From: a virus | Length of the DNA stretch: 64,000 bases | Virus record (IMG/VR): IMGVR_UViG_3300037493_004552 | Span: 1-64,000 of that record | Direction: 5' to 3' (one strand) | Shown: positions 3,832-64,000 of the stretch, piece after piece | Layout: every line of letters begins with the position of its first letter | Position numbering within the stretch: the stretch's first letter is position 1 | Notes under the pieces: generated by a model | Told to the model about the DNA's origin: nothing | Databases searched by the model: none | What the model saw: the letters and a program-made list of their open reading frames with translations, nothing else | Made by a program: the position numbers and the translations under genes

Positions 3832-4140
3832 ATGAAACTATCCCCAGTTTTAGTAGTAATTATTGGTTTTATCTTACCGTTCATATATGGGATAATGCTA
3901 TTATTTGCTGCTATTTTTAATACTACAAAAACAAACGGTTGTATTCATACACTCCTAGTTGGTGAGTGATGAATATCAAAAGCAGTCTGTGTAGATTTTA
4001 ATTCATTTAAAATGAAAACTCATGAGAGTAATATTAGTTCCACTTGAAGACAATTATGAAACTATTCAAGTTCGTACAACAGAGCTGGAGTCCTTCCATA
4101 CTTGCGCATTCAAACACAAGTTTGCCAAGAATGACTTTAG
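3832..4140 (+). CDS. small membrane protein, possible holin
   Basis: Directly after the endolysin. Residues 5-30 form a clear membrane segment (SPVLVVIIGFILPFIYGIML), followed by a polar stretch with two Cys. Under code 25 the frame runs to TAG at 4138, overlapping the next gene by 119 bases with a composition unlike a normal protein. A TGA at 4045-4047 would end it at 71 residues with an overlap of 26 bases. The position beside an endolysin suggests a holin or spanin-type role, but one membrane segment is not diagnostic. Confidence 0.5.
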
Positions 4141-4780
4141 TAATAATGATGCATTATTATTTGGATCATTAACACATGCTGTTCTTCAAGCTTACTTCTT
4201 CAAGCCAGAGGCTTGATATGATACACTCGACATCTTATGTCGTGGTTATGCTGATCGATGTAAAAACATTAGAGACTATATTGTTCTTACAGACGCCAAT
4301 AGATTAAGAGAACAGTATTCACTCATCTGTTCTGAATATCAAGTTGTCGTAGAAATAGAGATGTGAACACATCTGGTCATCTTATCGGGGACGATAGATG
4401 CGATTTCGAAGGCACCAGACAACGGACCATACACGCTTATAGATTTCAAAACATCTAAAGCAGAATGGAAACCAGAACAATTCGAAGCCAAGATGCAGAA
4501 GTTTATCTACCCACGATTATTATCAAAGCTTGTGTGAGAGGAGATGGTTAAAGGTTTCGACTATATTATCTATACCAAACATGTTACTCCTAGACTCCAG
4601 GTACTTAAGTATGAATGTAACTGGACAGAGATCGAGGAGTTAATCAAAACTATACTTACCGATTACACACATGCATTGAAAACGAATATGTGGAATCCTA
4701 AGATATGTACATCTTGTTTCTTTTGTCCTTTAAACAAGACATGTCCGCTTAAACAACTAGGGACGTTTGATGAGTTTTAA
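4022..4780 (+). CDS. Cas4/RecB-like PD-(D/E)XK nuclease with Fe-S cysteines
   Basis: A 252-residue protein with the RecB-family layout: an N-terminal Cys in ELESFHTCAFKHKF (Cys28), GSLTHAVLQAY, then LSGTIDAI and LIDFKTSK (the D...DxK active site), and a C-terminal cluster C232-x2-C235-x5-C241. One early Cys plus CxxCx5C is the 4Fe-4S pattern of Cas4 and AddB nucleases. Such enzymes resect DNA ends during recombination. It lies next to the Sak4-like ATPase and helicase, so a role in phage recombination or replication fits. No other cas gene is present. Confidence 0.78.
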
Positions 4781-5137: not shown

Positions 5138-6019
5138 ATGACTATTCAAATTAAAAAGTATTCGCCTACCGAACACAGACTCAAAGCTTTAATTTATTGA
5201 AACGCTAAAACATGAAAGACAACTTTCGCAGGGACGGCACCAAGACCGCTGTTTATTTGTGCAGAGAATTGACTCCTTTCAATAGCCAGCAAAGCACCTG
5301 ACTTTGTAGAGGTGAAAACGCTCCAGGAATTGAAGGACTTATACAGATGGTTAAGAGACACCAAACCAGATTACGATACAATCGTGATTGACTCACTATC
5401 TGAAATATCAAAGATTATAAAGGACAACCTTACCAATCAAGGGTCAAAGCAAATGATATTGAGAGACTGGTGAATCTTCAGCGAGGAAATGATGCAAGCT
5501 GTAAGACAAATTGTCAATCTTCCATATCATGTAATTTGTATAGTGCATACCAAAGAAGTATTAGATGAAGCAGGCGCTATAGCCTTCTATGAATTATCTA
5601 TTGAGACTAAAGCAAAAAACGAAGTGACTAGATATTTTGATGTTATTGGATTCTCATCTATAAATAAAGAAGGCGAATATAATATATCAATCAAAGGCTC
5701 ATCAAAGACTCTCTGTGGTGATAGGAGCAATACTATCGACAAGGAGAATACGCCTCTCGATGTACAAGAATGGATTACATCAATCGCAAAATTATCTACA
5801 ACAACACAAACAGTAGTTAAAGAAATTGAATCTGAAATTGTTAATGAAGAGTTTGTTCCTTTAGATACTCTTGCTGTTCAATATGACAAGATTAATATTT
5901 CATTGGATAAGGATAATTCGCCTGCTAATAAAAATATTTTGAAAGTAAATATAAGTAAAGCAAAAAATCTAGATGACGCCCAGAAGGCTAATCTTATAGC
6001 ATATATTGAATCTAAATAA
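5138..6019 (+). CDS. Sak4-like RecA-fold ATPase (phage single-strand annealing/recombination)
   Basis: The 293-residue protein has a P-loop GNAKTGKT (residues 21-28) in which both glycines are TGA codons, and a Walker B strand YDTIVIDS ending at D85. The start (KALIYGNAKTGKTTFA) and overall length resemble the phage nucleotide-binding AAA_24/Sak4 family, small RecA-like recombinases that act with SSB. The C-terminal third is Lys-rich and probably helical. The neighbouring Cas4-like nuclease and helicase support a recombination role. Confidence 0.8.
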
Positions 6020-6042: not shown

Positions 6043-7377
6043 ATGCCTCAGCAACTCGATGAGTATGGTCGTGCTTATACTACCGATATGATTACTGCTA
6101 TGCAGTATCGTATCGAAGATAGGCAGATAAATTATCATGCAATGCAAAATTGATATGTTCCTCCAAAGAAATATATTAATTTTTATACATATGATAAAGT
6201 TACAAGAACATATCGATTGCCTCCATCATGTTGAGTCGGGCACAAAAAATGAACCGATATCAATACCCCAGGAGAATTATCGTTATTTGGATATCAACAA
6301 GAAGTAGTACAATATTGTGTAGATTTATACAATACCAACAAAAAATCATGTATGATTATATCATGAACTGCTACGGGTAAAAGCCATATGGTTATGGGTA
6401 TTATCTATGCTATTCATCATAAAACAGTTATAGTAGTTCCAAACACACTTATCGGTAAATGATTACAAGATAAGTTGGGTTGATTACTTGATGCAAGATT
6501 CTTAATTGCTTCACAAGTAAGAAAACTTACAACACAACCAGATGTACTTATTGTGACAGGAGCATCGTTCAATAATCTTTTTAGTTGGATTAATGATAAT
6601 TATGACACCATTATCTGCGATGAGTGACACCATCTTTCTACAAACAGGAAAGATCAACTCAACATGTGGAAAGGGGACTTCATTTGCATGCTCACTGCAA
6701 CACCCGAAAGAAAAGAATATGGTCTTGAAGGGTTTGAAATGTATCTCTGAAATATACATGATACTGAAAGACAAGCCTTACCAGTTAAGGTATACACCTA
6801 CGAATATGATTATGATTACACGATAGACGAAGTGATCAAAGCCCAAAGTGGCTTAAGTCCCGAGTCGCCTGAATTATATCGTAGATTATATTGTTATAAT
6901 CCTCATCGTATTGGACATTTAGAACAAATTATATTGTATCTTAAAACACAATGATTTAGAAAAATAATTGTATTTACAGATAGAACCGCACATATAGACT
7001 TAATACAAAACATTATCCCTGACACTATCAGACTCACGGGATCAGAAGACAAGACAAAATTCTTGGCGGATATAGCAGACAAAGAGGATTATACAATCAT
7101 CGCTATGTCTCAGTGTGCAGGGGAGTGATTCGATTTACCAGCATTAGAGTGTTGAATATTATTTATGTCAACATCTTGGAATAATACAATTGATCAAACG
7201 GCTGGTAGAATTAGAAGATTCTCTTGAGATAAACAAGTAGCTTATTATATAGACTTCATCGACATTTTAAGAATAATGTGATGAAAAAAAAAGAAGTTAT
7301 GACGATACGAAAGATCTCGTATATACAAGAACAAAGGACGAGACGTCGTCCCGTTCGAAAATCTTTTATCTTTTTAA
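6043..7377 (+). CDS. superfamily 2 DNA helicase
   Basis: A 444-residue protein with SF2 motifs: motif I SGTATGKSH (residues 107-115), motif II DEGHH (193-197), motif III-like LTATPER, and motif VI QTAGRIRR (385-392), preceded by GEGFDLPALE. TGA codons supply G108 of motif I and the Gly of DEGHH, where Trp or a stop would not fit. The layout resembles UvsW/RAD25-type helicases of phages, which unwind branched DNA in recombination-dependent replication. It ends 9 bases before the next gene. Confidence 0.9.
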
Positions 7378-8936: not shown

Positions 8937-11636
8937 ATGATATCAACACAAGACTTCTTAAGAAGATTTGGAAGCCCTCTTGTGATATCTCTTACTGATA
9001 TTAAAGGTGTCAATAGTTTTGAGGGGTGGCATAAACATCATAATACAGCTGTATTATCAAAAATTAATAAAGATGAGACCACTCCCTATTGATTATTCTT
9101 TACTCCCAATGGGAACTACTGATCTATTCAACAGGAATGACAAAAGATAAGTAGGTCTAAAGAGACTCCTGGGCCCGCACCATATTATAATGCGCTTATA
9201 GTAGATATAGATATAAAAGATATCAAAAATAAATATCCCACTATGGAAGAACTCAGACTTCATATTGATGAAGTACTTAGTAAAATTACTATTCATCCAA
9301 CCGCTATTGTAGAATCATGATGAGGTTTCCATCTCTATCGAATGCTTAAAGAAGAGGATAGACAAGCGATTCATGATATATATGGTAATAAAATATTTGC
9401 TATCTCAAGATTTATGGCTACATTATTTGATTGATGAGATACAAATTCTAGTGTAGTAAGATGAGATATCAATGGCGTAATAAGACTTCCATGATCTAAC
9501 CATTGGAAAACAGGGAAACCTATCCCTGTTAAAATTGTATGGTATAGTGAAGAAAATTTCATTGATCTACAATGTATCGAAGATAGTCTTAAACAAATAG
9601 GCGAAGTAACTAAGACTATATCTGTTGCTAAAGACGCAGCTATATCAGTTGGAACAACGAAGTATTACGAAACTAGCCAAGTAAAAATTGCAGAAATAAT
9701 ATATAAATTATGAGCTTATCCTAGACTATATAAAGGTGAGGAACAAACATTCAGACTTGAATGAACTCATATATGTATAGTAGATAAAGATTGAAATGTT
9801 GATAGAACTGATTCATATAGGACTTGGCCTGCAAAAAATTGTGTACATTGCTTTTTGAAAGACAAATACACAATTGAAGAAAGACCTAGATGAGAACCTC
9901 GATCATTTGCATATCATTATTTTCATAAGAATAGCCAACAAACTAGAGCATTCTTTACGAAAGAGTTTAATATTGAATTCGAAAAATACAAAAAAGACGA
10001 AGTAGAAACTGTTATTCAAACCTTTGCTGGCAGAGATTATTTTGTAGAGCTTACTGACAGAAGAGTCATTATGCATAAGCAAATTAAATCTTGAAAAAAA
10101 ATGATTGATACAAATACCGATATATTTAGAAAACCTATCAAGATCATAGGTAAGTCCTGGACCAAATTTCATGCCAATGGTACGGAATGTGAGGACGAAC
10201 AAATGGTCTATGTGATGGAACTCGAGATTGATGGTAAAATAGTTAACAAGTTACTCTACCGTCTTCCGAGTAAAAAAAGATTCAATGAAAAATATGCGTG
10301 ATCTATATTTTATTATGGAGAAGATAATGACTTATGAATGTGGTATGAAGCTATGGATATCAGCGATTTACCAACAGTTCAAGTAACTGTACTTAGTGGT
10401 CTTTATAAAAATAGTGACTGAAGTTGAACAGTAATACTATGAGGAAAGGTTATTTATTGAAATCCAGGATTAAGATACTTTACTCCAGCATTCGAATTAA
10501 AAACTAAAATATCTGAAGAGATTTCATTGAAAGAATTCTATAGAAAATTCAACGAAATCTATGATGCTGAAGTTGCTGTTCCATTATTCCTTCAATTCAT
10601 TGCATTATGTGGAATGAATATTTGGGAGGGGACGACGGTCTATCCAGGTATGCTAGTATCTTGAAAGACTTGATGTTGAAAATCATCTATTGCAGAGATA
10701 CTAAAAAATATGGCTGGATATACAGCTTCTGACAGGAAAGTCGCCCTTCCGCAAATCACACCACAACCTTTGAAGATTATGTTTACTGACAATTCTATAT
10801 TATTCCCTGATGAACTAACATTAAATGTTGGTGAAAAGGCTGAAGAATCATGTAGAAATGGAATCAACAGAGATAAAGGTGCAAGAGGTATAGGTTGAGA
10901 TAACGCATACTATAACTTCAGAGCACCATTATTCTTTACATGAGAAAGAACATTTAAAGATGAATCGTTAAACAATAGACTTGCTGTTATTATTCTTTCT
11001 GAAAAATATTGGAAGAAAGATGGTAAAGATAAAGTAATTGATATTAAAAATTATTCCTGTATCAAAAATATATATGATTGATACTTTGGATATAAAAGAA
11101 ATATCAATGAATTACAAGCAGAGAAGGTATCAATGCTTGTAAAGGCAGGAATCAAGCCAAGAAACGCCGATGTCCGAGCTTATATCTTTACAGTTAATGA
11201 AGTCTTTCAATTCTGATTCGAAGAAGATGAACTCATAAAGATAGTTAAAACACATTTACAAAAAATGTGATTCGGAGGAGACGACGATATCACTGATGAA
11301 TGAGAATTACAAATGTATCTTTCAAAAATATTATTTGCTAGACAAGCACAATGTGTTAAAGAACAATATAAAAACAAATCATTATATAGATTTATGTTTA
11401 TGGACGACACAGCTTATGAAAAAGCTAGGTGATCACTAACAACATTAGTTAATAGTATTAATGCTTACTGAGAAAGAATTCATGTTTCAAAAAACTGAAT
11501 TACAATAGTAGTTAAAGAACTTAATAGTATTGTTGTAGATCAAGTACTTGAAAAAATAATGGAATTTGTTTTATCATGTAACAGCAAAGTGATACAATAT
11601 GTTAACAGAGACTCTGAAGAATGACCTTATAACTAA
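8937..11636 (+). CDS. primase-helicase: AEP (PrimPol) domain plus P-loop ATPase
   Basis: A 899-residue replication protein. The N-terminal archaeo-eukaryotic primase signature is VDIDIKD (D90 and D92, metal ligands) and ESGGGFHLY (S127...H132, two glycines from TGA TGA). A helicase domain has the P-loop SGKTGCGKSS near residues 575-584, where all three glycines are TGA codons, followed by a Walker B-like IMFTD segment. The order primase then SF3/D5-type ATPase is typical of phage and plasmid replication proteins that prime and unwind the origin. The far C-terminus overlaps the next gene by 38 bases. Confidence 0.88.
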
Positions 11637-18458: not shown

Positions 18459-18480
18459 ATGAAATATATTTCAAAATAAA

Positions 18481-20078: not shown

Positions 20079-20080
20079 AT

Positions 20081-20738: not shown

Positions 20739-20741
20739 ATT

Positions 20742-23189: not shown

Positions 23190-23256
23190 ATATAAAATAT
23201 TTATTTATATAAAATTATATCTACATACAGTGTATTGTTTTGTGGGAGAAAATCAA

Positions 23257-24468: not shown

Positions 24469-24495
24469 CTACACTATTGTAATAAGTAAAATAAA

Positions 24496-24735
24496 TTATT
24501 CTTGAATATTAGATACAGATAATGTATCAGTACAATAGAGTTTTACTGTGTGTGATAAGTTTGTTAGTATCGTAACGATAATAGGTACGAACAACACATA
24601 TTCAGCAGGGATATTAGCGTTAGATATAATAACGATAACACCTACGATAACAGAATACAACGCACCTCGTGCTAATGATTTCGCTTTCTTGATAAGTTCG
24701 ACTTTACTAATACTGAATTTTTTTGATCCTTCCAT
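24496..24735 (-). CDS. holin-like membrane protein, 79 aa
   Basis: A basic N-terminus (SISKVELIKKAKSLARG), then two membrane segments (ALYSVIVGVIVIISNA and VLFVPIIVTILTNL) and a polar tail. Size, two segments and position in the M15 cluster fit a class II holin, which forms pores letting the endolysin reach the wall. The ATG is preceded by TTTATTCCC. Confidence 0.65.
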   Translation of the reverse strand: MEGSKKFSISKVELIKKAKSLARGALYSVIVGVIVIISNANIPAEYVLFVPIIVTILTNLSHTVKLYCTDTLSVSNIQE

Positions 24736-24759
24736 GGGAATAAATAAGAGGTTAAAAAA

Positions 24760-25038
24760 TTATTTAATAACTAGATTAACTACAGCTCATAACACAGCAA
24801 TAAGAATAATACCGACGAATCATTTGACCACCCGCTCAACTCGTTTGCTAGCGAATTTTTTTTCGAGGCGGTCAATCTTACCGTTCATAACATCGGCGAA
24901 TTGCATAAGCGCATTACTGATTTTTTCGTGTGAAGAATTGTTTTCTTTAATAAAATCTTTAATGCTATCTTTTATCTCACGGATATCTTGCATAGTTTGT
25001 TTATTCTGTGTTTCTAAAACTGCGAGTCTTTCTTCCAT
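24760..25038 (-). CDS. XhlA-like coiled coil with C-terminal membrane segment, 92 aa
   Basis: A long heptad-repeat helix (MEERLAVLETQNKQTMQDIR onward) leads into a basic patch (KKFASKRVERVVK) and one membrane segment (FVGIILIAVLGAVVNLVIK). This is the layout of the XhlA hemolysin/holin-partner family. Two TGA glycines flank and split the membrane segment. It likely works with the holin 24 bases downstream. Confidence 0.65.
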
Positions 25039-25046
25039 TTATTTTA

Positions 25047-25238
25047 CTAAGATAATAAATGAGTTACTTGTTGTACCAAAATAGTATAAGTAGCATCAGT
25101 GAATTGAGCATAATATTCGATAACTTTAGCTTTAGCTTCATCTTCTGATGTTGCTTGTACTGGTCGAATGTATTCAATTGGTTCATACATTTCCGTACCA
25201 ATTACTTTAATTACTTGAACTTGGATTAGATAATTCAT
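25047..25238 (-). CDS. small protein, 63 aa
   Basis: MNYLIQVQVIKVIGTEMYEP, a short alpha/beta protein with no TGA. AACCC precedes the ATG. It sits between a fibre gene and the lysis cluster. No function recognised. Confidence 0.55.
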   Translation of the reverse strand: MNYLIQVQVIKVIGTEMYEPIEYIRPVQATSEDEAKAKVIEYYAQFTDATYTILVQQVTHLLS

Positions 25239-25241
25239 GGG

Positions 25242-27140
25242 TTATGATATATATAAATAAAAAGATTGTATTACTCATAATGGTTCAACATTCCAAACAG
25301 ATGGTGTTAAAAATTCTATTTGTAATTCATCTCAAGCATTTACTGCTAGATTGATATTATAAAGATCAATTCTTGAACCATCAGTAAATCATATTGAGCT
25401 TAATGAATAACCTGTAGTTGCAATAACTTCTGTTCCTTGCGTGAAGTTTCTAACTTTTATAGTTATAGTGTTATCAGATATTCCTCGTTGTGTAACTACT
25501 TTTGACATTATTTGTAATGATTTAACATGTCCTGTAATAGGTGTGTGTGATCTCATTGCAGGTGAATTATAGAATAATGTTTTAGCTGCTACACCAGGCG
25601 TTGTAGAGAATAAATATGTTTCATGCTGAGCAGGATTATATAATGGCGCAAAATATGTTAGCGTTGCTCAACCTCAACCACCACCAGAATGTGAAATTAT
25701 ATCTTGATAGATACAAGATAGATCTATCATTGTACCGAAAAGATTTAAAGTATAAATAGAATCTCCTGTCTCAGGATCTACTGTACAATTAAATTCAAAT
25801 TCTGAATATTTATTAACTATTGAATCATAAATACATGTCATATCAATAGTAGCTACTCGCTCTGATTCATCTCAAAGATATAATGTATATATAGGATGAC
25901 CCATCTCATCAACTGTACATTCAAATGAACCTTCTATTCTATGAAGAATTGAATCATATATACAAGATAAATCAATTTGACTATCTGCTCATGTTTCTAA
26001 TGAGAATATTGGTTTACCTGACTCATCAGTAGAACAATAGAATGACATTCCATTTGTAATAGTATTATAAATACAAGAAAGGTCTATGGTTTCTCCTCAT
26101 ATATAAAGTAAGTATTGTGGAATTTGTGATTCAGGCAATACACATTCAAAACTTACATTAAGATATGTTAGGACACTACCATAGATACAAGTCATATCTA
26201 CATCTGTTCCTCATACATGAAGTATTAAAGCATTTCATGCTTCAACACATTCGAATTGTACATCAAGGTTATCAATAATACTTGTGAAAATACAAGATAG
26301 ATCTACTTCTGTATCACAAATTTGTAATGTATATATATATCCTACTTCAGCAGGACTACATTGAAAGCTTACGGTAGGAGCGAACATTACATCTATAAAA
26401 TTATTATGCGAATCTCGTGATGCTGATAAACATGTTCCAAAATTTATGGCTGTAACATTACTACGGACTAATGATCCTCCACTATAAATAGCGAGTGATG
26501 ATCATTCACCTCCTCATGTACATGGACAAAGTTGTCATGCTATAATATTAATTTGGTTTTGTAATATATCAATATATGGTTGTACACATTTGATAACTTG
26601 ATCACAACAAATATCTAATGGATTTGCCCGATATGCTGTATTAGTTGTGCTATTCCAAGTAAGTACTTGAGAGTTAGTACCTCATGTGGGTAATCCAACT
26701 TGTAATAAATTAGGTCATACTTTAAATCTTAATCAATCTAATCCTTGAACAAAAATAAGATCTCAATTATTTACAGCATAATTATTTGTGCCATCCATAA
26801 ATGTGATATGGAACATATCTGCTATACAACTAATATTATGTGTAGTTGTTCAAATAACTAATTCTCATGAAGTACAATCAAATGTAGATATAACACTATT
26901 ATTTATAAAAATTCCATCTACTTCAATAGTACATGCTCTTGCGTTAACAATAAATCCACTAGTGAAATGTAAAATATCTAGTAGTACTTCACAGTCTATA
27001 CATGACAACATATCTTCACATGTAATACCATCGGGAATTTGTTGAAGTATCCAATGACATCAATCGAATACGATAATTGAATTAGGTTCTAATTGATTGG
27101 GACAATTATCGATTAGATCTATTAAAGATACATAAGGCAT
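25242..27140 (-). CDS. fibre protein with tandem DLSCIY repeats, 632 aa
   Basis: N-terminal shared module (DLIDNCPNQLEPNSIIVF, CHWILQQIPDGITCEDMLSC, VQGLDGLRFKVG, LQVGLPTGGTNSQVLTWN). The middle has about seven copies of a roughly 38-residue unit, IDLSCIYxSI...FxCTVDExGxPIYTLxLG. The C-terminal 140 residues (LTYFAPLYNPAQHETYLF... to PSVWNVEPLGVIQ) match the next gene's protein. It is likely a modular receptor-binding fibre made by domain shuffling. Many TGA glycines. Confidence 0.72.
25690..26340 (-). repeat. coding tandem repeat within the fibre gene
   Basis: About seven copies of a unit near 110-120 bases, seen on the plus strand as repeated ATACAAGATAGATCTAT-like words. They encode the IDLSCIY units. 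Copies are diverged, as in an old protein repeat. Confidence 0.65.
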
Positions 27141-38616: not shown

Positions 38617-40299
38617 TTAGATTCTGAAACCTTCGATGATAGCATGTGCTCCTGAATCGATACCTCCGATGATCAAAGCCATTTCTGTCCACACGTCGTA
38701 GTTTCTACATTCATGTTGACCTGGTAATGTAACATCTTCAATATTGAATCCTTGAGTTGATTTCAAGATTGTTCCAGATTGCAAGTCTAATCTAGCGTTT
38801 GGTCTTGTTCTCAAACCTACAAGTGGTTTAGCGATGAACAAAATTGAACCAGCATTTCTTGTAATCTTAGTCCACTCTGAACATGTCATGATCTCAGTCT
38901 TTCCATTTGGAGTTTGGATTACTGGGATTGTAAAGTCCTTAGTAACATTATCTGTTCTAGTAACCATAAATCCTGTAAATTTATTCCAAGCGTTATTGAG
39001 TTTCATGAATGCTGCCATAGCAGTATTATCCATAACCATTGTAGTTATAGATCCTCTTGGTACCATACCTGAGTTTTGACAAGCAAGGATAACATCCAAG
39101 ATAAGTCTTACTCTATCTTCGTCAGTCAATAGACCAGCAGCAGATCTGATAAGTCTTAGTTGTGGTTTTAATGCATGAGCATTTCTCAAAGCTGGAATCA
39201 ATCCGAGAGTTTCTCCAGGTAGATTTCCTGTGTTGATTGGATTTCTATTTCTTCCCATATAGAACATTCTAGCTGCAGATCTAACCATATTCAAGTTAGC
39301 TCCCCAAATCTTCTGTCTCAAATAATCCATTACTCCGTCTTTAGTGTCGTAAGATCTATTGAGCTCATTCTTATTCATAGAGAATTTATACCCTAAGTGT
39401 TGAATGAAAGATTGCTTCATGTTGTATCCTTGAAGTTGGAATGTGTTTGTAATAGGGTCACAATCATTTCTTGAATGGAATAGTTTCAAGATTTTATCAC
39501 CAGGATAAGTTCCTTGATACCATTGATTAGGGTCATTTAAGAATGTATTGATTGCGTTAGGTGCAACATTTCTTCCTTTGTAAGTTACCAATGGAAGTTC
39601 ACCAGGATTACCATTACCTTCTAGAGTCAATCTTGTATAAGTTTGACCATTGAATACATGAGTATCAATAGCAGTAATAGTTCTGATGATTTGTGTTGAA
39701 CAACAATCAATGTCAGAAATTCCATCAGTAGGATCATTTCTATAAACAAGGATTGTATCATTTACTTCAACTAGTTTGTTTGTTCCAGGAGCATTCAAGT
39801 TGATAGGGTTACCATCTTTGTTTGCTATAAGAACTTGATTAGTTGGAGCAGCTTCATCTTGTACGATGAAAATTTCTTCCTCTTCATATTTCCACTCTGA
39901 CCAAATATATCTAGTACCATCAACTGGTTCGATAAGTTCAATGTTAGGAAATGATTTGAAAGTAAGAGCTGCTAATGGTGCATTCTGCATATTAGTAGGA
40001 TCTAATATTTCGTCGTAATTGAAAAGCAATTGTGCAATTGTAGGGAATTGCGTCATGTATGCTTTAAACAAAGGAATTTTTTGTGTTTGAAGAATTGACA
40101 AAGCATCACCAACATAATATTTTCCGTTAGGAAAATTATATTGTTGAGTATATGCTCCTGGTTCTCCAACATTGAGTCCAGTATTTACAACACCATTTAA
40201 TCCATGCCATGTATATGACTGGGTTTGTGATGGGGTGACATCGCAAGGTGTAGTATCTGGAGCACACGGATTACACCCAGGTGATTTTGGATCGTACAT
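38617..40299 (-). CDS. major capsid protein (probable), no TGA codons
   Basis: A 560-residue protein directly downstream of a scaffold-like gene and portal, isolated by a strong terminator, which is the usual place for the major capsid protein. It contains long beta stretches and a helix-rich middle (MDYLRQKIWGANLNMVRSAA). Despite about 40 glycines it has not a single TGA; all are GGN. This contrasts with its neighbours and suggests selection for fast, accurate translation of a very abundant protein. No HK97 motif is certain by eye. A TTTTTATT element lies about 28 bases before the ATG. Confidence 0.72.
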   Translation of the reverse strand: MYDPKSPGCNPCAPDTTPCDVTPSQTQSYTWHGLNGVVNTGLNVGEPGAYTQQYNFPNGKYYVGDALSILQTQKIPLFKAYMTQFPTIAQLLFNYDEILDPTNMQNAPLAALTFKSFPNIELIEPVDGTRYIWSEWKYEEEEIFIVQDEAAPTNQVLIANKDGNPINLNAPGTNKLVEVNDTILVYRNDPTDGISDIDCCSTQIIRTITAIDTHVFNGQTYTRLTLEGNGNPGELPLVTYKGRNVAPNAINTFLNDPNQWYQGTYPGDKILKLFHSRNDCDPITNTFQLQGYNMKQSFIQHLGYKFSMNKNELNRSYDTKDGVMDYLRQKIWGANLNMVRSAARMFYMGRNRNPINTGNLPGETLGLIPALRNAHALKPQLRLIRSAAGLLTDEDRVRLILDVILACQNSGMVPRGSITTMVMDNTAMAAFMKLNNAWNKFTGFMVTRTDNVTKDFTIPVIQTPNGKTEIMTCSEWTKITRNAGSILFIAKPLVGLRTRPNARLDLQSGTILKSTQGFNIEDVTLPGQHECRNYDVWTEMALIIGGIDSGAHAIIEGFRI

Positions 40300-43471: not shown

Positions 43472-43972
43472 TTAATAAAGTTGTCATGGATTAGCGAATG
43501 CGTTAAGTACATTGATAACTGTATCGCTCTTATAGTATTTCTTAAGCTTAAGATACTTATCTACTAGTTTTATTATACTTGGCCGATCCCTTAGCATTGC
43601 TCCCTTTGGGCCTTGAAACACGGCGCTTTCTATTCCCTCCTTGATAACTCACATTATATAGTCATCATCCAAGCCCGCTTTTTCTAGTGCCGCTATTATC
43701 GTACCTAATTGCTTTTCTGCTAAGCTTTCTTTTCATGGTATTAACAATTGTGAAGTCGATTGGTTTGTCAGGGTCCTCACGTTTTGTGAATCATCTTGCT
43801 GATCCTCACTTCTGACTAGGTGTTCTTCCACTTGGAGGAACTTCGGTTGGAATTCATTTACTAAAATCTGAGATTCTAGCAACTCAGGTTCCGACTCACT
43901 TTCCGTATTCAACGAGATAATCTCGTTCTTTGGAAGAATAATACTTTCATCAATAGGATTTGCTTGTTCCAT
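43472..43972 (-). CDS. unknown protein upstream of portal, 166 aa
   Basis: Acidic N-terminus (SESEPELLESQILVNEF), then a basic helical C-terminal half (IIKLVDKYLKLKKYYKSD). Only a few TGA glycines. It lies between portal and the giant protein. A virion-assembly or head-completion role is possible; no family recognised. Confidence 0.55.
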
Positions 43973-44024
43973 AAGATTTATAAGGAGAAAATAAATAGGA
44001 TAGGTTTCTCATTTGTAAAGAGGT

Positions 44025-47000
44025 ATTAGAATATATTGGATATTCTTTACTATTATAATAATTTGAATTACCAAACGATGTTCAAAATTCATCTTTAAAA
44101 TATTGTTGTGCTCATTTTTCTTTTGCTAATTCTACTGTACCATCTACAGTACCATGAAGAAAACGCATAGTCTCCATAAATTCATCTTTATATTTAGATG
44201 TAGACATAGTAGGAGCGATAACAGATAACTTATTATATAATCATATAAACATTCATTTCTTCATCTCTATCTTAGCTTCTTCAGAAAGATGTGATGTAGT
44301 TATATAGTTTAATGTATTGTTTAATCACTTTAACATAAGTCAGTTATATTCAATGCTTGCATTGTCTGAACCTTTAGGCATCCATAATGTTGCAAAAGCA
44401 TTGCTTATTTTATATCCATCTGGATTTCAATTAGCCATTTGGATTTTAGCCATAAGATCCATAGCATATACTTGATTCATTACTGAGTTCTTATATGGTT
44501 TCTCTTCACCAGTATCTGTCTTCTCGTATGTAAAATTGATATCTTTAGATGGTCTACCTGCTTTATCATACGGATCTGATAAACTACTTTGTAATTCAGG
44601 ATGTGCTTCTCTAGCGTAGAATAACGACATGTTCTTCCATCACATTGGCTTATCAGTAATATACATTAAGTCACCATACATTTCTCAAAGATATGATTCT
44701 ACTTGTTTACTTATAGTTGGATCTGGTTTTCCATTAACCCAAGCACCATCTATATCACCCATTATTGTTCACCATTCTGATGAAACAACATTAGCTAACA
44801 TCTCTTTTCCAGCACCAGGAGTATTAGCTTCAGCAAATGCTAACATCTGCACTGCTCATTTCTGATTTCATTTTACTGATTCATTAAATAATTTTAATCG
44901 TTGTGTCCAGTCTCATTCTTGCATAGAGTCTTTCATTAGACCAACAAACAAATCTTCTTGATTCTGTCTAGCTGGCCACGTTCTTTCTGTACCAGTACTA
45001 TCAATAAAATTAAAATTCTTTCTCATATCATCAAACCAAGCTTGTGGATTAACCTTAGATCAATAGGATCACATATTAGTTAGTTGATAATATGCATATT
45101 GTTTTCCATCATTACTTATTGCGTTCCAATCTATTTCTCATTTCAATATATGGTTTTGAAAGAAATCATCTTGTCATAATATTCATACTACCTTAGAATT
45201 TATTTCTTCATCTTGAAACTGTCATAACTTTCGATCTTTAATAAATGGTAAATTATATAATATTCGATTACCAAGATAATTTTTTGGATCAGCTATTAGT
45301 TTTTGCATAGCTACATTACCACTCATCTTTCTATATTCTGCAATGAATGGGTCTTGATATGGCATTAACTCTTGTAGATATGCTTTATTAGTAAGCGGTG
45401 TATATAAATCAAAACTATTACTAGTTACTTCTTGAGATGAATAATACAAATATCATCCAGTTGCTTTTCTAAATGAAAGAAAAATATTTGGTAATAAATT
45501 CATAACATCTTTATCTCTTACAGTTTCTGATACTCAACCTATGGCTGCTTTAGCTAACGTTGCTCTCCTGAAGAAATCATTAATAATTTGTTTAGCAGTA
45601 TCCAATCATGCCTTTTTAAAATCTGAACCTGTAAAATTTATTCTTCAATCATTATCTACATCTCATAGTATTCAATATATAAATGCTAATGCAGCTCTAC
45701 CAAACGGATTAGATTCAAATGCTTGAATAGGAAACGAATAATTTTTTCCTAACTCATATCATTCTCTTAATGTAGTTACAAAATCTTTTTGTCAATCGTT
45801 ATCTGATATTAATCTATCTTGTTTGAATCACATACCTATAGCAAGATTCATTTTTTCTATAAGATGAGCAAAGTCATCACTCTTTGAAACATAATCTAAA
45901 GCTCGTTTATCAGCTTCTATCTTTCATAATGTTTCTAGTTTATCTAAGTATATTTTTCAATATGTTCATCTTATTAATTTAGAACCAATAGCTTGTCATA
46001 TAGTTTCTAAACTAGACTTCATCATACCCATACCCCACGATCCCATCAGTGAATATGTTCGGTATAATGCTTGTTTTAATTCAGGAAGTGTATTATCGAA
46101 TGTTACTTTACCTTTCCAAAATTGTGTATATTGCCCAGTTCTTTTGTTAAGAATTTCTTCAGATCTTTCTTGTAAAGATTTAAGAATACTCATTCTTTCA
46201 GATTCAGAAACACTCTGAAGATATATATCTAATTGTTTGGCGGCATCGGGTCATGCAAACTGAGGAAGAAATTCTTCGATAGCTTGTCACAATGATTGGT
46301 TTCTTATAGACTTACTATAGAATATATCTGCTGCATTATAAAATCATGATTTATATAAATCAGATGCTTTCATTGTAATTGCATCAACTGTATGTGCTAA
46401 TCAATCAGCATCAACACCCATCATTTCTTTAGCTACTCGTTGTTCATATTCACTTGTTGTATATAAAACATTATACTTTTGTCTAAAATCATATAACTCT
46501 TCGTTAGTAAAATGTTTAATATTATATTTTCTCATAGTTTCAGTAAGCCATGCCATAGAGTTCATCACTAACATCTTAGGCATACCTCAAACATTTAATA
46601 CTGTTTGTCATATTCTATATACATCAGCACCTAAGAATGTTTGGAAAAATTGTGCGATTCTTGATTCGTTATGATCATTACCAATATATTTCCATAGTGT
46701 ACGATATCTATTCCAATCTATATCTGGAAAATCTATCTTAAAAAAATCTTTAAACTTATCCATATTATCTCTAAGTTCTATGAATCAATCTCTATCAAAA
46801 AATTTCATGAACTCTCATAGACCTCAATCTCATGCAAGTCTAGATAAAGCAGCAACTTCGTTTCCTGTTCTTCTATCTAATCATAATGCAGATAATGTTT
46901 TATTAATAATTCATTTTCATTCTCCTGGTGTATATTTTAATGATCTTAATTTTGTTTCTATCTTTCCTTTAAGTTCTGGATATTGTGGAAAAAATTTATC

Positions 47001-50000
47001 AGCAGTATCGTTAGCAAACCTTCTAACTTCTTCCATAAGTTCATCGCTAATTTCTAACCCTGTATCAAATGTTTTTTTTGCTGCTATAGAAAGAGCTTTC
47101 CATAATGATAACCCATTAGATTTATATAATGGTTTTGTTAATTCAAATCAGTCATTATCTATGTTGGATCTTTTTAATGCATCATTAAGATTAGAAAATG
47201 TGAAAAGCTTATTAGCTGTTTGTCATTTAGCTAATTGCACGCTTGTCATACTTGATATCTTTTTTTGTGTAAGAATATTCTCGGTAGTATCTATTCAGTT
47301 AGCAGTAAGAATAGGAATATTTTTTCATGGTAGTTCTTCATTTTTAACTATTTTATCTATGGCATTAATTTGTTTTCATACTTTATCGGTAATTAATGTT
47401 CACCAATATTGTCATGGCTCATTGGGATCTCTTAAATCTTTAAAGAATGTGAGCATTCTTTCTTTATCTGATATAGGTTTTCCTGATGAATCAGCAACAT
47501 ATCTAAATCATGTCTTAGGATCTATCTGAATACTTTCCCCTGCAGCTTCATCAAATAATAAATATCTTGTTGTCTGATATTTACCTTCAGATTTTATAGA
47601 CTTAGTAGTAAGTGATTTAAATTCTTCTCATTTTTTAGGTTGAAGATTTTGAGATGTTCTTTCATATGTGTATTCTACTCCATCTAAAACTATTTTTCAA
47701 CGTTGTCAAAAAGTATGATCGACATTCTCTATCATATTTAACAACATCTTAGATGGCTCCTTAGAATATTTACCTTCTGCTATATAATCACTAATGAGAT
47801 CTTTAGCAATAGTCTGTCTAGTGGTTTGTCTTCTACCTCTAGTAGCTCATACTATTTCATTATCAGATAATTTTTTAATCATATTAATATTATCTACTTC
47901 ACTTTTTCAATGCTTGAGTATATTATCTATCTCTGTATCAGTAATATAACTAGGTACAAGATTATTTGCCCTTATAAAATCTTTAGTAAGTTCGAATGTA
48001 TCTCATATTCATGCAGCAATAGCTTTAGATTTTTTAATAATCTTATCTATTGGCATTCTTTTATACATATCTATTTTTGCTTGAACATATTGTTTAAGTT
48101 TTACAGCATCATATTTACCCATAGCATTATTATACTTCTGCATATACTTATCTGTCATCTCATTGAAGATAGATTGATCATCTACAGACAATGTCATCCA
48201 TTTTTTTTCTGGTATATCTCGAAGTTTCTTAGATAATCATTCAGTAAATAATTGATTATACTTTATTGAGTCGGGTCCATAATGTTTTAACACTCTACTA
48301 ACATCTACTATCGCATCAATAGCAGTAAATACTGTGTCTGTTCGGAAATTACTAGTGGTATATGCTTTTGGATTATGTCATTGTAACGCACCAGCCATAA
48401 TATAATTATTTATCAATAACTTAGCAGGCTCTAATAAAAGTTTTTGTGTTACATAACTATCTTTGCTTACCATATTGATAGCATCAAGAGGAGTCTTGCC
48501 TCATTTAATGAGTTCAAGATATTCTGGTAATACTTTTCATAGTAATTTATTTAATGGTGATCCTGCTGTCTCAGCAACTTCAGCAATATTTCTTCCAGAC
48601 TTAACAAGCTTCGCTGTTTCTGCAGCTAATTGTCATGCCTTTGCTAGTCTTGTTGCCTCAATACCTTTCTCTAATGTTGCAATTTCTCATGCTCATACTA
48701 GAAATGGTGCAATCTGAGCAACAAGTTCAGGTCACATTTGTATTCATCTTCTAGTAAAGTTCTGAAATCACTCCCAAGTTTTCTTTGTCCATCATTGTGG
48801 TGGTGCTATTTTTGAATCAATATTAGCAAGTGATTCCATATCCATACGCCCAAGAACTCATGCTGGTCAACCTAGATATATAAATCATTTCATAGTATTA
48901 AGTAAATTTTCTGCTTTAGAAAAACCTATACCAACTCATTCTAGAATTTTTTGTCATACATTTCCTGATCTAAATTTCATTTCATTTATATTTTGTTGTG
49001 CAACATCTCATCTATTAAGTTTTAATGAGTCAATTGCTTTATTTAATGATTCTTGTGGTCATCATGCTACATTATCCACGATTCATTTTAATGCTAATCC
49101 TGGCGCTAAAGCAATTCAAGAAGTAATAGTATTACCTAAATCTTTTTCTCACATAATATCTTGTATGTTTTGATTAGTTTCTTTTAAATATGAATCTGTT
49201 AACTCATGAATACTATTTCATTTCAATCATAAGTTTACAATCATATATCTAACATAAGGAATTACATTCTCTTCATTATTCTTAATCATACTATTTGCTT
49301 CATCTATTTTTTTTTGATAATATTTCTTATCAGCATCAGTTTTAGATGTAGTTAATAATTCTTCAGCCATTTGTTTTTGTATATATGGCTTAGAAAGCAC
49401 ATGATCTACATTACTATCCGTTATAAATTTATCAGCAATAGGATATATATCAGTTCATTCAAGTTTTTTTCATCTATAATTTCTTCACTGTAATATTGTA
49501 TTAGTAAAAGGAGCAACAATATAATTATAATTTGTCTGTTGAATATTTTGTAATGTTTTTTTATCCTTAATCTCTGTATCACTAGGTCATATAACATCTT
49601 CTTCTCGCATTTTTTCTACTTCTCATTTATGAGTTGTATATTTTTTAGCTAGATTTTCCAATGTATTTGCTGATGGGACATCTTTTAATACTCCGTGTGA
49701 CATCTCAAACGCTTGCGAAAAAATCTGATCTTGTAAAGCGTTAACCTCTGGAGCTTTTTGTTCAGTAGAAATATTAGGATTGTTAAGTATAGCATTCTTT
49801 TGTTGATAAAGTTGTGCTATATTATCCAAATAATTGAAATCACTCTTACCACCAGCTGTTTTATATGGGCTAAATTTCTTAGGAAGGTCTACTTCGTTCT
49901 GTTTATAGAACTCATACTCTTTATTATTTTGTTTTTGTGGTTCAATAAACAATGGTTTAGCAATATCTTCAATAGCAAAATGTCCTATCCTTCAGATAGT

Positions 50001-50435
50001 GCTTCATATCTTACCTCGATTACTAGCATCTTCTGGCATTGGCTCATTCGTTTGATATCATTTAGTAACTCATCACATAATTTGAGGTATAACTGGTGCA
50101 GTATTTGGTACTCATCATCTATACGATAATCATTTGATCATTTCGCTTTGTGCTTTGGCAGCATCAGCTTTTTTCTGTGCTGCTTCTATATCTGCATCTT
50201 GTTTATCTTTTTCCTGCTGTGTTTTTGGTTGGAAAATATTTATCCAAGGTGTGGTTGGACGAAATGGTACATTAACTATTGGCTGTGTTTGTGGTATTTG
50301 TGTCTGTATTTGTGCTTGTGGCTGTTGTATTTGTTGTTGTGACACTTGTTGTGTGGGTACAGGTGTGTTATTATCACCATCAAACAAATCTACGGCTCTA
50401 TCGTACAGACTTTTTAATGTACCTAAAATATTCAT
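44025..50435 (-). CDS. giant virion-associated protein, 2136 aa
   Basis: One uninterrupted frame of 2137 codons once TGA is read as Gly; I checked every codon of it for TAA/TAG and found none before the TAA at 44025. The N-terminus is Gln/Pro-rich and disordered (VSQQQIQQPQAQIQTQIPQT). Hydrophobic Gly/Ala segments occur near residue 560 (MGPELVAQIAPFLVGAGEIA); otherwise it is mostly helical with many Asn/Lys. Location between large terminase and portal and the size suggest an ejected internal virion protein or a tape-measure-like protein. No catalytic motif recognised with confidence. Confidence 0.75.
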
Positions 50436-58401: not shown

Positions 58402-58836
58402 ATGTGAATCTTCACCTGACAAATCAATGTTAATGAGGCGTTGTCCTACATTAATACAGAGTTCTTATCTAAGATCAAAGAGGGCATGGTCATCACCAAG
58501 GACTACGCCCTAGACCTGGGAGCGAGATACTCACAGTATGCTATAACAATAGATGTAGTCATGGCAATAGTACGATGAACTCTTTTTCTTACAGCACTTT
58601 TGCTATTGAAGAAAATGTTTAGACGATGCAAGCATATCAATTCAAAAGCAGATTATGAAAACGAATGAGTTGCATATGTTATGTTCGTAGTTCAATTCGT
58701 TGCTATGATTTGATTCTTTGTATGAGCCATTACTAATGTAATGGATCTAGTCAAACGAAAGTTCGTACCTGAAGTTCAGATGTACCAAGTAATCATGGAC
58801 ATCAAGAATGGTAACACAACTAGCAATGATAGATAA
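58402..58836 (+). CDS. membrane protein with two segments, 144 aa
   Basis: Second codon is TGA (MGIFTGQINVNEAL). Two membrane segments are visible (VVMAIVRGTLFLTALLLLKK and YVMFVVQFVAMIGFFVGAIT) with a basic cytoplasmic loop between (KMFRRCKHINSK). Possibly superinfection exclusion or host-membrane interaction; no family recognised. Overlaps the next gene by 29 bases. Confidence 0.6.
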
Positions 58837-59413
58837 TCTATCTCTCATCAAACCACTACTCAAGTGGGACGGGCCCGAGCAGTTCTACTTCATACAGATC
58901 ATCGTACGCAAGAAAGATATAGCTGGTATGCAAAGTAACAACAGGGTTATCAAAGATTACTATGTATACTCAGAAGAATACTTAGACAAAGTATATCCAG
59001 AGATACAGAAACTATGTAAGCTCTTTGATGCACGTGCATACATCAGACTATCAAGACGCGACGCGGCTGAGATAGCTAAGGATCTTATTGTTCTGGTAGG
59101 CGAAGCCTTCAGGAACAACAGCTTCCAGCATCTACGCAAGATCTATTCAACTGCAGTTGGACAGAACCTTGGGTTAGATAAGCTATGGATCATTGACCTG
59201 GACTGAACAGACACATCGTCGGCAGCTAGGATCACTGAAGCAATCAATGTCTTACAACCGACAGGCATAACCAATAAAGTTGTGACTACTATACCAACTA
59301 AGAATGGTATACATCTAATCACAACTCCGTTTGATTTGATGAGGTTCCAAGACAATGGCTTCCATAAAATAGATGTACACAAAAACAATCCAACACTTTT
59401 ATATTGTATGTAA
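58808..59413 (+). CDS. possible AEP primase-like protein, 201 aa
   Basis: Has LWIIDLDGTDT (a DxD-like motif, with one TGA glycine), then IPTKNGIHLITTPFDLMRF, reminiscent of the sGxH motif II of archaeo-eukaryotic primases. ARAYIRLSRRDAAEIAKDLI precedes it. Small stand-alone proteins of this type occur in phages, but the spacing of motifs is not fully convincing and a second primase is at 8937. Confidence 0.45.
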
Positions 59414-60501: not shown

Positions 60502-61035
60502 ATGGAAACAAATCTAATGAAAGTCTCTATTGCAAAACTCTGAACTTCAATACAAGAAGTTGAGATAGCAGTATGAGCGACAGCAATGGACGCTCTAAGA
60601 AAAGCAGGATTCAATCTTGATTGAATAGTTTCAATTAAAAGAAACTGAACAGTCATCGCTCTTGATGCAGCTTTAACAGCAGAAGATGTCTTGCTTGTAT
60701 CAATAACTAAGGTGAAAGGTTGACTCGATGAGCCAACTGCAACCGAAACTCCAGTCAATGTATTGAAGTTATCTTTCCACATCGTGAAAGAAAATCAACC
60801 AGAAGTTAATGGACAAGTAGCATTCACAGACGACATGTCTACGTTCGACATCATCAAACAAGTCATGAATTCTAAAGGAGTTTCATTAAACGACTTCAAA
60901 GAAATCAAAGATGCAGAAGGTAACGCAGTTACATTCTCAGACAAACTTGTTGACGGTGGTTCATACAAAATCGTTATCTCTGATACTCCAGCAGGATCAG
61001 AAGACGAAGACGATTATGAAGAAGACGATTCTTAA
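60502..61035 (+). CDS. ubiquitin-like protein with two beta-grasp domains and internal Gly-Gly
   Basis: The 177-residue protein has two beta-grasp (ThiS/MoaD/ubiquitin) units. The first (residues about 6-74) reads VSIAKLGTSIQEVEIAVGAT ... ALRKAGF...VSIKRNGTVI...LVSITKVKGG and ends in Gly-Gly at 73-74. The second Gly (60721-60723) is a TGA codon, so standard translation would truncate just before it. A linker (LDEPTATETPVN) leads to the second unit (about 88-165) and an acidic tail (GSEDEDDYEEDDS). The Gly-Gly end is what E1 enzymes activate and JAB proteases release. It is the first gene of the cassette; processing after residue 74 is inferred. Confidence 0.78.
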
Positions 61036-61098
61036 TAAGCTTTTCTCTAGGTTTTACTTCCCCGAAAATCTAGCGTGTGGTTGTACATGCAACTCGAT

Positions 61099-61130
61099 AA
61101 CCCTGGTACGATAAGCCAGGGGTTTTCTTT
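61099..61130 (+). terminator. hairpin/terminator after the ubiquitin-like gene
   Basis: AACCCTGG / CCAGGGGTT stem with a T-rich tail (TTTTCTTTT). It could let the ubiquitin-like gene be expressed more than the three downstream genes. Confidence 0.7.
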
Positions 61131-61150
61131 TACTTTAATTTTAATAGTAG

Positions 61151-62653
61151 ATGTTCATACATGAAGACTTCAAAGAAGATCTCAAAACATTAAGGGCTGA
61201 CTTACAAACTAAGTTCGCTTTCCCAGCGGACGGAGTCGACAGTCTACCTAATGAGAAGATCATCGAAAAACTTAGAGAGATATTCTCAGGTGAACGTAAC
61301 CTACATAATCACAGGTTAGTCTCTGATACCTGACAAGATTATTATATTAATTTAATTCTAGATAATGTTGTATCAATAGATGATTCATTCATTCGACTAA
61401 AGGATTGACTGTTCAGACGAACTGGTCTAACGGATTTAATTAATACAATAGAACAGGAATCAACTGAAGCTGAACTCTTCAAACCTAATAAGGTATGCCG
61501 CGTTTGTTCATCAGACAAACTCAGAACATTAAGTCTCACAACAATGAGAGATTATATCTGAAGGCATTACAAAGTAATTACCTATCATAAAGACGAGCTC
61601 CCTGAGTGAGTATTAGATAGTATGATTCATATCTATACATCCAGACAACGCAGACTTGTATACGTACAAGATGCATACGAAAACTGGTATTCAATACCAC
61701 AATGTACATTAGTTCCTACATCAATCAAAGACCTTGTCGCTCATGAAAGAAAGATCATGCTAGAGAAAATCATTTATGATTTACAAGACAATGCTAAATT
61801 CAAACTCGAAGAGTTGTCTAATGAATACTCTGAGAAACTCAGAGAGTTTATGGAGGCAAGCAAAAAGCTTGAACAGAATATGACATCAGACTACACACAA
61901 GAAGCGGAACGCATCTTGGAGATCCAACTCAATGTTAAATCTATTCTTGAAAAGAATGAACAGATAACTGATGTTAAATATATTATGGGTAAAGAACTCA
62001 TAATCGAAACTGTTCCTCTATTCTGTGGTGATACTAAGCTACCAATAGGTAGATATAGAATCACAATACCATTGAAGGAATGGAACCCTAAAGCAATTAA
62101 TATGGATATAGGTAAAGATAATGGTTACCAACATCCACATATACAATCCAACTGATCATGTTGTCTTGGTGAATACATATCACCTATGAGAACATCATTC
62201 AGCAAACAAGATTATATTACTCTTGCTGGATTCTTTATCGAGTTTCTCGAATCGTTAAACGAAAATAGTGTATATCAATCAATGGAGAACTGGCAACAAA
62301 ATAATTACAAGAGATTCATTCCTTATCTTGATAAGCAACCTAAGGTAGCGAAGCAAGTTAATGGTGAAGCACCAAGCATCATCATCATAGATGATCCAGA
62401 AACCACATCTGAATCAGAACCTGAACCTGAATTACGCGTATCATATAACTGACCATTGGATGAAGCAATTGCTGTTGCTAATGAAGAAACAGCATCATTA
62501 CAATCTGCTCTTGCTCAAAAAGAATTGCAAGAAAGAATTGCACAAGCAGACTCAGATCGCATCGATAGAGAGCAAGACGAACAGATGCAAGCTGAAGAGC
62601 ATCCAGAAAACGACGATGCTTATACTGAAGCAAATACACCAGCAACATTTTAA
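61151..62653 (+). CDS. E2-like (ubiquitin-conjugating-type) protein, 500 aa
   Basis: One frame of 501 codons with TGA as Gly. The N-terminal part has KVCRVCSSDKL (possible zinc pair) and a compact alpha/beta region. A long coiled coil (residues about 205-275) leads to an E2/UBC-type core: LPIGRYRITIPLKEW, then HPHI (328-331) and NGSCCLGEY (334-342). HPxI...G.xCLG is the UBC active-site signature with catalytic Cys at 337 or 338; the Gly before SCC is TGA. The C-terminus is acidic and disordered. It should carry the ubiquitin-like protein from E1 to targets. It sits between the ubiquitin-like and JAB genes. Confidence 0.72.
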
Positions 62654-62668
62654 TTCTTTTATATACTC

Positions 62669-63664
62669 ATGGCTAGACCTAAATTAAAAGTTGCTGTACT
62701 TATCTCAGGATATGTAGCTCAACTTATTGACAGACTCCACGAGGAGTATCCTAATACAGAGCGAAGCGGGATTGCTAGGATAGAGAAACGTGAAGGTCAT
62801 TACTTAGTAACTGACATTCGTTTCCCTAATCAATCAAACACCTGAGGGAACACCGAGATCAAGGACGGTTGATTAGAATCTTTGCTAGAAGATATCTTCA
62901 CCAACAATCCTGAACAACTCCACGAACGAAAGGTTCGAGTTCACTCTCATCATTCAATGTGAGTCTTCCGATCAGGTACAGATGCTTCAGCAAAAGCATC
63001 ATTCAATGATGGTAACATGGATTACCGATGGTCAATTGTTACAGCTTACAAAGCTAACTCCATCACATATAAGTGTGCATTGAACGTATTCAAACCAGCC
63101 AATATAGAATTCGATGTACCAATCAAAGCAGAAGAATTCAATCTTGAAGAATACTTATCGCTTACTATGCCTGACTATCTCACATATAAAAAGGCATACG
63201 ATAATCTCACCGCTCAGAAAGACGCGGCGATGGAAGAATATAATCAGCCTTATGTGCCAACAGAAGCTGATGTAATTACACTTATAAATATCTTCAACGT
63301 CGAAGACAACGAAGACAACCGCGCATCTTGTCTTGAGATTCTTGAAAAGAATTCCAAAGGACAAAAGAAAGCGTGAGCACATCGTATCATTGAGACATAC
63401 AATGATGAATGTGAAGAATTATTAGACTTCTTTGGTTGAGATATATTCGCAGACAAACTCATAGAGTTGGCTGATTCAATAGAAGCTACTAGAATATATC
63501 CAGTATATAACCCACATCAAAAAACATCGTTTGGTACTGATGGTTATCCTGATCCATTGCCTGGACAAAGATGATTGTTCGATCCAGAACAATCTAAACC
63601 AGACAGACCAGGATCAAACTCAGCAATTTTAAATCATTACTGATATCCCGATGACCGAGACTAA
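62669..63664 (+). CDS. JAB/JAMM metalloprotease (deubiquitinase-like)
   Basis: 331 residues. The JAMM zinc site is complete: H92-x-H94-x7-S102-x2-D105 in VHSHHSMGVFRSGTDAS, with the supporting Glu likely in TERSGIARI. TGA encodes the Gly in MGVF. Beyond the JAB domain is a helical region and a Pro/Asp-rich tail (PDPLPGQRGLFDPEQSKPDR). JAB proteases trim ubiquitin-like precursors after Gly-Gly or remove them from targets. It starts 16 bases after the E2-like gene and overlaps the E1-like gene by 14 bases, so the three are co-transcribed. Confidence 0.85.
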
Positions 63665-64000
63665 TAAGGAAAGATATCATAACCAGCTAGATATAATCAA
63701 TCCGCTCTTCGAGCAGACTAAGGTCGTTGTGATAGGAGCGGGTTGAATTGGTTCCACTACTATCATGTGCCTAGCACAGATGTGAATCAAAGACATCACA
63801 GTAATAGACTTCGACACAGTCGAAGATCATAACCTCGCGTCTCAATTATATAAGGAGACTGATGTTAATAAAGTTAAAGTGCTTGCACTCCAAGAGAATG
63901 TATTAGCATTCACTGGGATAACTATTCAAACCATCAGTTCAAAGTTCAGACCAGAGATGGTCAAAGACGCAGACATCGTTATCATTGGTGTAGACAACAT
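63651..64000 (+). CDS. E1/ThiF-like ubiquitin-activating enzyme (5' part)
   Basis: First 116 codons of a gene that runs off the window. RYHNQLDIINPLFEQ leads into a Rossmann loop VVVIGAGGIGS (G29-A-G-G-I-G; the fourth residue G32 is TGA) and VIDFDTVEDHNLASQLY, the DxD...N..SQ pattern that binds ATP-Mg in ThiF, MoeB and E1 enzymes. ...DVNKVKVLALQENV continues the fold. It would adenylate the Gly-Gly end of the ubiquitin-like protein and pass it to the E2-like Cys. The catalytic Cys of E1 lies beyond the window. Confidence 0.88.

Follow-up and report, generated by a model that had tools for sequence, protein, structure and literature searches.

Operons that combine genes for a ubiquitin-like protein (UBL), an E2-like enzyme, a JAB protease and an E1 enzyme are known from bacteria, notably from anti-phage defence. 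In the class 6d/PRTRC systems, the E2 has no upstream His but a conserved downstream His, and the set comes with an alpha-helical protein and a JAB-N domain (PMC1779556). In the Bil system, BilD comprises an inactive and an active adenylation domain together with a Cys domain, and BilB carries a CEHH motif (PMC11354881). Here we analysed a 64,000-nucleotide stretch of viral DNA (bases 1-64000 of the 66,234-bp IMG/VR record IMGVR_UViG_3300037493_004552, hereafter the window), which carries at its end four genes in the order UBL, E2-like, JAB and E1. The evidence supports their identification as a UBL-E2-JAB-E1 cassette, and our assessment is that they probably form a reversible and self-contained system of ubiquitin-like conjugation, encoded by the phage and placed in or beside its replication/recombination module. 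The open papers that we searched contain no description of full UBL cassettes in phages, although subscription papers and preprints were largely outside this search and a prior description is therefore possible; those on crAss-like phages make no mention of ThiF, JAB or ubiquitin.

Translation under code 25, with reading continued past the end of the window, gave four open reading frames (ORFs) on one strand, including the complete E1, of which the initial annotation had seen only the start (Table 1). The close packing noted there for the last three genes is also present: the E2-like and JAB genes are separated by 15 bp and the JAB and E1 genes overlap by 14 bp, with 115 bp between the UBL and E2-like genes. 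Each cassette gene contains 3-7 in-frame TGA codons, and the frames could in principle be a coding artefact, open solely through TGA readthrough. We give this explanation practically no credence, because long ORFs cover 0.76 of the region under code 25 versus 0.28 under code 11, and because the homologous genes of code-11 phages lack TGA and encode Gly in the conserved columns that are TGA in the window. These columns are UBL G14 (Gly in 34/36 homologues) and G74 (36/36), JAB G98 (34/36), E2 G335 (18/25), and E1 G45 (21/22) and G32 (17/22). Since the homologues have Gly at these positions, the alignments support the reading of TGA as glycine in this phage. The codon of UBL Gly74 (60721..60723, plus strand) is itself TGA, i.e., the key glycine of the proposed pathway is written with a reassigned stop codon. 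The host is likely a member of the Absconditabacteria or Gracilibacteria, because code 25 is used by the majority of phages with predicted Absconditabacteria hosts (PMC10746230).

The UBL consists of a ThiS/SAMP2-like beta-grasp domain (residues 1-70), a KVKGG motif ending at Gly74, and a 103-residue tail (residues 75-177), which probably forms a second beta-grasp and has an acidic C-terminus. The initial annotation had described it as a double beta-grasp protein with an internal Gly-Gly. This holds for the first domain, which AlphaFold models confidently as a beta-grasp (predicted local distance difference test score, pLDDT, ~90; strands and helix in beta-grasp order), and for the glycine, as Gly74 of VKGG is the sole invariant column in an alignment of 37 UBLs; the second domain is a low-confidence prediction. 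As a whole, the model resembles linear di-ubiquitin, tandem ubiquitins and ISG15 (Foldseek E 5.9e-6, prob 1.00), and the UBL profile matches SAMP2 at 2.9e-4 (nearest solved structure 5lda) and ThiS and MoaD more weakly. The UBLs of the relatives are mostly single-domain. In the window protein, Gly74 is internal and its exposure would require cleavage; it is predicted to be the point of both JAB cleavage and E1 adenylation.

The E2-like protein carries the active-site motif HPHIQSNGSCCLG at residues 328-340 (62132..62170, plus strand), confirming the HPH...CCLG-type site first noticed there. In a domain alignment of 26 sequences, used in place of a full-length alignment, invariance is confined to H328, P329, H330, C338 and G340. 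The His-Cys spacing is 10, as is also the case in eukaryotic UBC enzymes (UBE2D). The predicted order of elements in the core, i.e., a long helix, four strands, the active site and two helices, is the UBC order. Among the PADLOC models, an E1-E2 model matches at 1.4e-4 over residues 258-386 and E2 models match at 1.4e-4 to 2e-3, and the E2 alignment found no match among PDB sequences. Judging from the model, a UBC fold is probable, not proven.

The JAMM site HxH-x7-SxxD of the JAB protein is present as initially annotated, with H92, H94, S102 and D105 invariant and E31 nearly invariant across 37 homologues. The JAB family profile, which scores 2.5e-44 within the window record, matches the deubiquitinases Rpn11 (1.5e-5) and CSN5 (3.2e-4) in the PDB; the single window JAB protein gave no match to family models, and its relatives match Pfam JAB/Prok-JAB at 5e-5 to 1e-3, at or under the cut-off. 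The identification of the E1 is beyond doubt on sequence grounds: it matches Pfam ThiF at 8.7e-28 (97.5 bits against a cut-off of 28.1) and the E. coli ThiF structure at 1.9e-10, with C173 within the aligned stretch, and in 23 homologues G29, G31 and S35 (GxGGxGS), D53, N61, K76, D115, R120, C173 and K176 are invariant. Hence the catalytic residues and the key glycine are retained in homologues of all four proteins. Regarding the folds expected from the initial annotation, beta-grasp (UBL domain 1), Rpn11/CSN5 (JAB profile) and ThiF (E1) were recovered, and the E2 part returned weak UBC/UEV matches.

The nearest families of the UBL (ThiS, MoaD and SAMP2) and of the E1 (ThiF and MoeB) would also fit a sulfur-carrier system, in which a ThiS/MoaD-like UBL is activated by a ThiF enzyme and freed by JAB, as in CysO/Mec+ and thioquinolobactin synthesis, to yield a thiolated nucleotide, tRNA or metabolite; moreover, the E1 has a single domain like ThiF. 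SAMP2 and Urm1 act in sulfur transfer as well as in conjugation. A pure sulfur-carrier role is nevertheless unlikely, with a small chance of being correct, because the E2-like gene in the middle of the cassette is conserved, with an invariant Cys and HPx, and has no place in sulfur transfer. In addition, the conserved neighbours examined include no rhodanese, sulfurtransferase, cysteine desulfurase partner or thiolation enzyme, and the window E1 has only two cysteines (C40 and C173) and no CxxC zinc pairs.

The initial annotation knew of no described UBL cassette in a code-25 phage; the cassette is not peculiar to such a phage and is widespread in code-11 phages. We collected relatives over viral contigs with one DNA pattern for HSHHxMGxFxSGxD, which yielded at least 119 stretches; the locus counts given here refer to these matches listed, and the census favours JABs carrying this seed motif. 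An E1 lies downstream of JAB in 107/111 loci, within 120 bp in 85 of them. The gene upstream of JAB, where long enough, contains an E2-type active site in 59/91 loci, of the types HPH...C (41), HP[YF]...C (14) and HSH...C (4). Further upstream, the E2 is preceded in 58/107 loci by a small ORF whose product terminates in [GS]G followed by 0-6 residues, compared with 9/509 control small ORFs. Forty-three of these 58 carry residues after the terminal glycine, as ubiquitin-like precursors do, and these residues would have to be removed before the E1 can act. All four genes occur together in at least 44 loci. The invariance of the catalytic residues holds across homologues of ~10-30% identity. Named phages with pieces of the cassette in UBL-E2-JAB-E1 order are Crassvirales cr128_1, Dulem virus 41 and Flavobacterium phage Fpv1, in whose annotations these pieces appear as 'thiamine biosynthesis protein', 'ThiF family protein', 'metalloprotease domain' or hypothetical. 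The E1 tree has three main clades, and the window E1 stands apart from these on a long branch, the precise placement of which is uncertain.

The same gene order was found in code-11 phages; a TGA-specific version of the JAB-motif DNA pattern found no code-25 relatives. Scanning viral contigs with the single window E2 and JAB proteins revealed no relatives, and tblastn of the same two proteins against phages gave no match; these single-sequence searches came back empty because the proteins are too divergent. The relatives' E2 and JAB proteins likewise had no tblastn match in INPHARED and PLSDB. A JAB-motif search of genome contigs returned only two contigs from metagenome-assembled genomes, binned with Thermodesulfobacterium and with Candidatus Izimaplasma HR2 (L127 and L128), which are possibly phage contigs or prophages. 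One subclade of 19 loci (e.g., L100:4789-5226) has an extra gene of ~145 codons between JAB and E1, a candidate accessory factor.

The surroundings of the cassette are also conserved. A Sak4-like single-stranded DNA (ssDNA)-annealing ATPase follows the E1 within 1.5 kb in 36/41 loci of the HPH clade and 24/26 of the HPY clade, and in these clades Sak4 is followed by a conserved 202-residue protein and a DnaB-like primase-helicase. In Crassvirales cr128_1 and Dulem virus 41, the cassette is located between primase and uracil-DNA glycosylase, and in Fpv1 it comes after uracil-DNA glycosylase. In the record analysed here, the last 109 bases (66126-66234) are an exact direct repeat of the first 109 (window 1-109), so that the record can be joined into a 66,125-bp circle, which probably represents a complete genome. 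Across the closed junction, the cassette is followed on the same strand by a sigma factor (1126), an exonuclease, Sak4, a helicase and a polymerase/primase (Table 1). The gene neighbourhoods point to a replication/recombination module, rather than to modification of host or virion proteins or a counter to host defence, the roles suggested in the initial annotation. The protein of ~202 residues after Sak4 (75 loci; e.g., L015:10935-11543), which has no PHROG or Pfam match, is possibly ssDNA-binding and a candidate target.

Table 1. Cassette genes and downstream module genes, in window numbering (code 25).
Feature	Position	Strand	Remarks
UBL gene	60502..61035	+	177 aa; ORF under code 25
E2-like gene	61151..62653	+	500 aa; N-terminal region 1-215, UBC-like core (probable) ~219-370, acidic/helical C-terminus
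JAB/JAMM metalloprotease gene	62669..63664	+	331 aa; E31, H92-S-H94-x7-S102-G-T-D105
E1/ThiF-like adenylating enzyme	63651..64310	+	219 aa; window holds 63651..64000 only, C173 and stop beyond the edge
PD-(D/E)XK exonuclease	4022..4780	+	downstream of cassette across closed junction
Sak4-like ssDNA-annealing ATPase	5138..6019	+	phrog_124 1.4e-50; family directly after E1 in most homologous loci
DNA helicase, same module	6043..7377	+	
Probable DNA polymerase/primase, same module	8937..11636	+	phrog_2478 3e-6

We infer the chemistry, the direction of flow and the targets of the pathway as follows. JAB would cleave the UBL precursor after VKGG (Gly74), so that its C-terminal extension is lost. 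The E1 would use ATP to adenylate the freed glycine and then hold the UBL as a thioester on C173, from which it would be passed to C338 of the E2, with H328 and H330 shaping the active site. The E2 would join the UBL to lysines of target proteins, and JAB would strip it from the targets again. Because of the recurrent replication context, replication and recombination proteins are the first candidates as targets; proteins of the module (the Sak4 annealing protein, the helicase/primase and the ssDNA-binding-like protein) or host proteins located where replication takes place seem most plausible. More tentatively, the cassettes may represent a distinct and so far undescribed class of virus-encoded UBL pathways, present in at least four divergent tailed-phage lineages (two metagenomic clades, Crassvirales/Fpv and the code-25 phage of the window), that reversibly tags replication/recombination proteins during infection, comparable to the control of PCNA and recombination by SUMO and ubiquitin in eukaryotes; we regard this broader proposal as possible, with the odds somewhat against it.

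The same chemistry could instead serve mainly as a weapon against the host, tagging or inactivating host proteins or jamming UBL-based host defences (Bil, CBASS Cap2/Cap3). Modification of host proteins is common among phages. UBL pathways of bacteria have known roles in defence (PMC10097602, PMC11153139), and a phage UBL/JAB set could interfere with them. However, in three divergent clades the cassette lies in the conserved replication/recombination module, not in a variable accessory region, and a full E1-E2-UBL set exceeds what counter-defence by JAB alone would need; we therefore consider a host-directed main role rather unlikely, while leaving it an appreciable share of the probability. 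Several points weigh against a conjugation system tied to replication. The E2-like gene is highly divergent, Pfam E2 models do not match its product, and the top PDB fold matches of its model, mostly UBC/UEV, are weak (UBE2W at E=0.22 and TSG101 UEV recurrent; E>=0.18, prob <=0.3). A strict regular expression recovers the E2 active-site motif in just the 59/91 eligible loci mentioned above, and the second beta-grasp of the UBL has a pLDDT of ~40-75 in the AlphaFold model. The window Sak4 is ~7 kb from the E1 and not adjacent to it, and the conservation of neighbours within clades reflects common descent in part.

Complete virus-borne cassettes near replication genes reverse the picture drawn from bacteria, and their presence in divergent phage clades suggests that phages use ubiquitin-like tagging in their own cycle. 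The 'thiamine biosynthesis protein' genes of crAss-like gut phages and of cultured Flavobacterium phages would get a new name, and their function is directly testable in existing phage isolates. The cassettes also bear on the origin of eukaryote-like E1-E2-UBL cascades.

Other features of the phage genome include a group of large minus-strand ORFs (at 13913, 15318, 18927, 20742 and 25242, within 13913-27140) with a related N-terminus (NCP...L..N.IIVFDGCHWILQQIPDGITC-type), which probably code for paralogous virion or receptor-binding proteins. A 560-residue ORF (38617-40299, minus strand) has no in-frame TGA and is flanked by long TGA-rich neighbours; it may be a capsid gene with high expression, in which the reassigned codon is avoided. 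The 2292-residue ORF at 43557-50435 (minus strand) contains 106 in-frame TGA codons and has no PHROG match. Upstream of the cassette, 58808-59413 (plus strand) codes for a 201-residue phrog_14949 protein with 28-42% identity to proteins of Cellulophaga phi17:2, Lak megaphages and crAss-like phages.

Among the known systems, the likeness to PRTRC and Bil proposed in the initial annotation is right in kind, as the set of UBL, E2, JAB and E1 is the same, but on the features examined the phage genes match neither. As in PRTRC/class 6d (Iyer et al. 2006, PMC1779556), there are separate genes for a small UBL with a C-terminal Gly, a JAB, an E1-like and an E2-like protein, carried by mobile elements; in contrast, the phage order is UBL-E2-JAB-E1, HPx lies upstream of the Cys in the phage E2, and the neighbours are replication genes. 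BilABCD, the ISG15-like anti-phage operon (PMC11354881), has the same components UBL, E2, JAB and E1, and its tandem UBL, BilA, which the window UBL may resemble, is cut by the JAB BilC, but it is a host-borne operon whereas the cassette here is carried by a virus, the phage E1 has one domain in 219 residues, and the conserved Gly follows the first UBL domain and not the last. The identity of the gene set with class 6d/PRTRC, the tandem UBLs of BilA and ISG15, and the score of the PRTRC ThiF model (2.3e-14) could suggest that the phage acquired its copy from one of the operons already described in bacteria (PRTRC/class 6d, Bil or CBASS Cap2-Cap3). This is very improbable in view of several differences. 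No cassette protein scores above the cut-off of the NCBIfam PRTRC A, B, C and ThiF models, the bit scores being far under it (53 vs 145 for PRTRC_ThiF and 14 vs 102 for PRTRC_A), and the best PADLOC matches are generic E1-E2 models. The upstream HPx of the E2 is unlike class 6d (PMC1779556) or the CEHH of BilB (PMC11354881), the single adenylation domain of the E1 is unlike BilD, and E1 and E2 are separate genes, unlike in the fused classes 6a-6c.

CBASS Cap2/Cap3 (PMC10097602, PMC11153139) also has E1, E2 and JAB enzymes, but Cap2 is an E2-E1 fusion and there is no dedicated UBL gene, whereas the phage genes are separate and a UBL is encoded. The archaeal SAMP/UbaA/HvJAMM1 system resembles the cassette in its SAMP2-like UBL with GG, its single-domain ThiF/MoeB-type E1 and its JAMM protease. 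To our knowledge, that system has no E2, whereas the phage cassette includes an E2-like gene. A UBL and a JAB are likewise encoded by phage lambda in its tail assembly proteins I and K (PMC1779556); these belong to a tail module without E1 or E2, and the JAB is fused to NlpC/P60, in contrast to the full cascade near replication genes described here. Also close are the Crassvirales 'ThiF' and 'metalloprotease' and the Fpv1 'thiamine biosynthesis protein ThiF', which are homologous E1 and JAB proteins with an E2-like gene (HSH...CLG) and a UBL (K-x-K-S-G plus extension) encoded just upstream; these phages use code 11, belong to another clade and have been annotated piecemeal rather than as carriers of a conjugation cassette.

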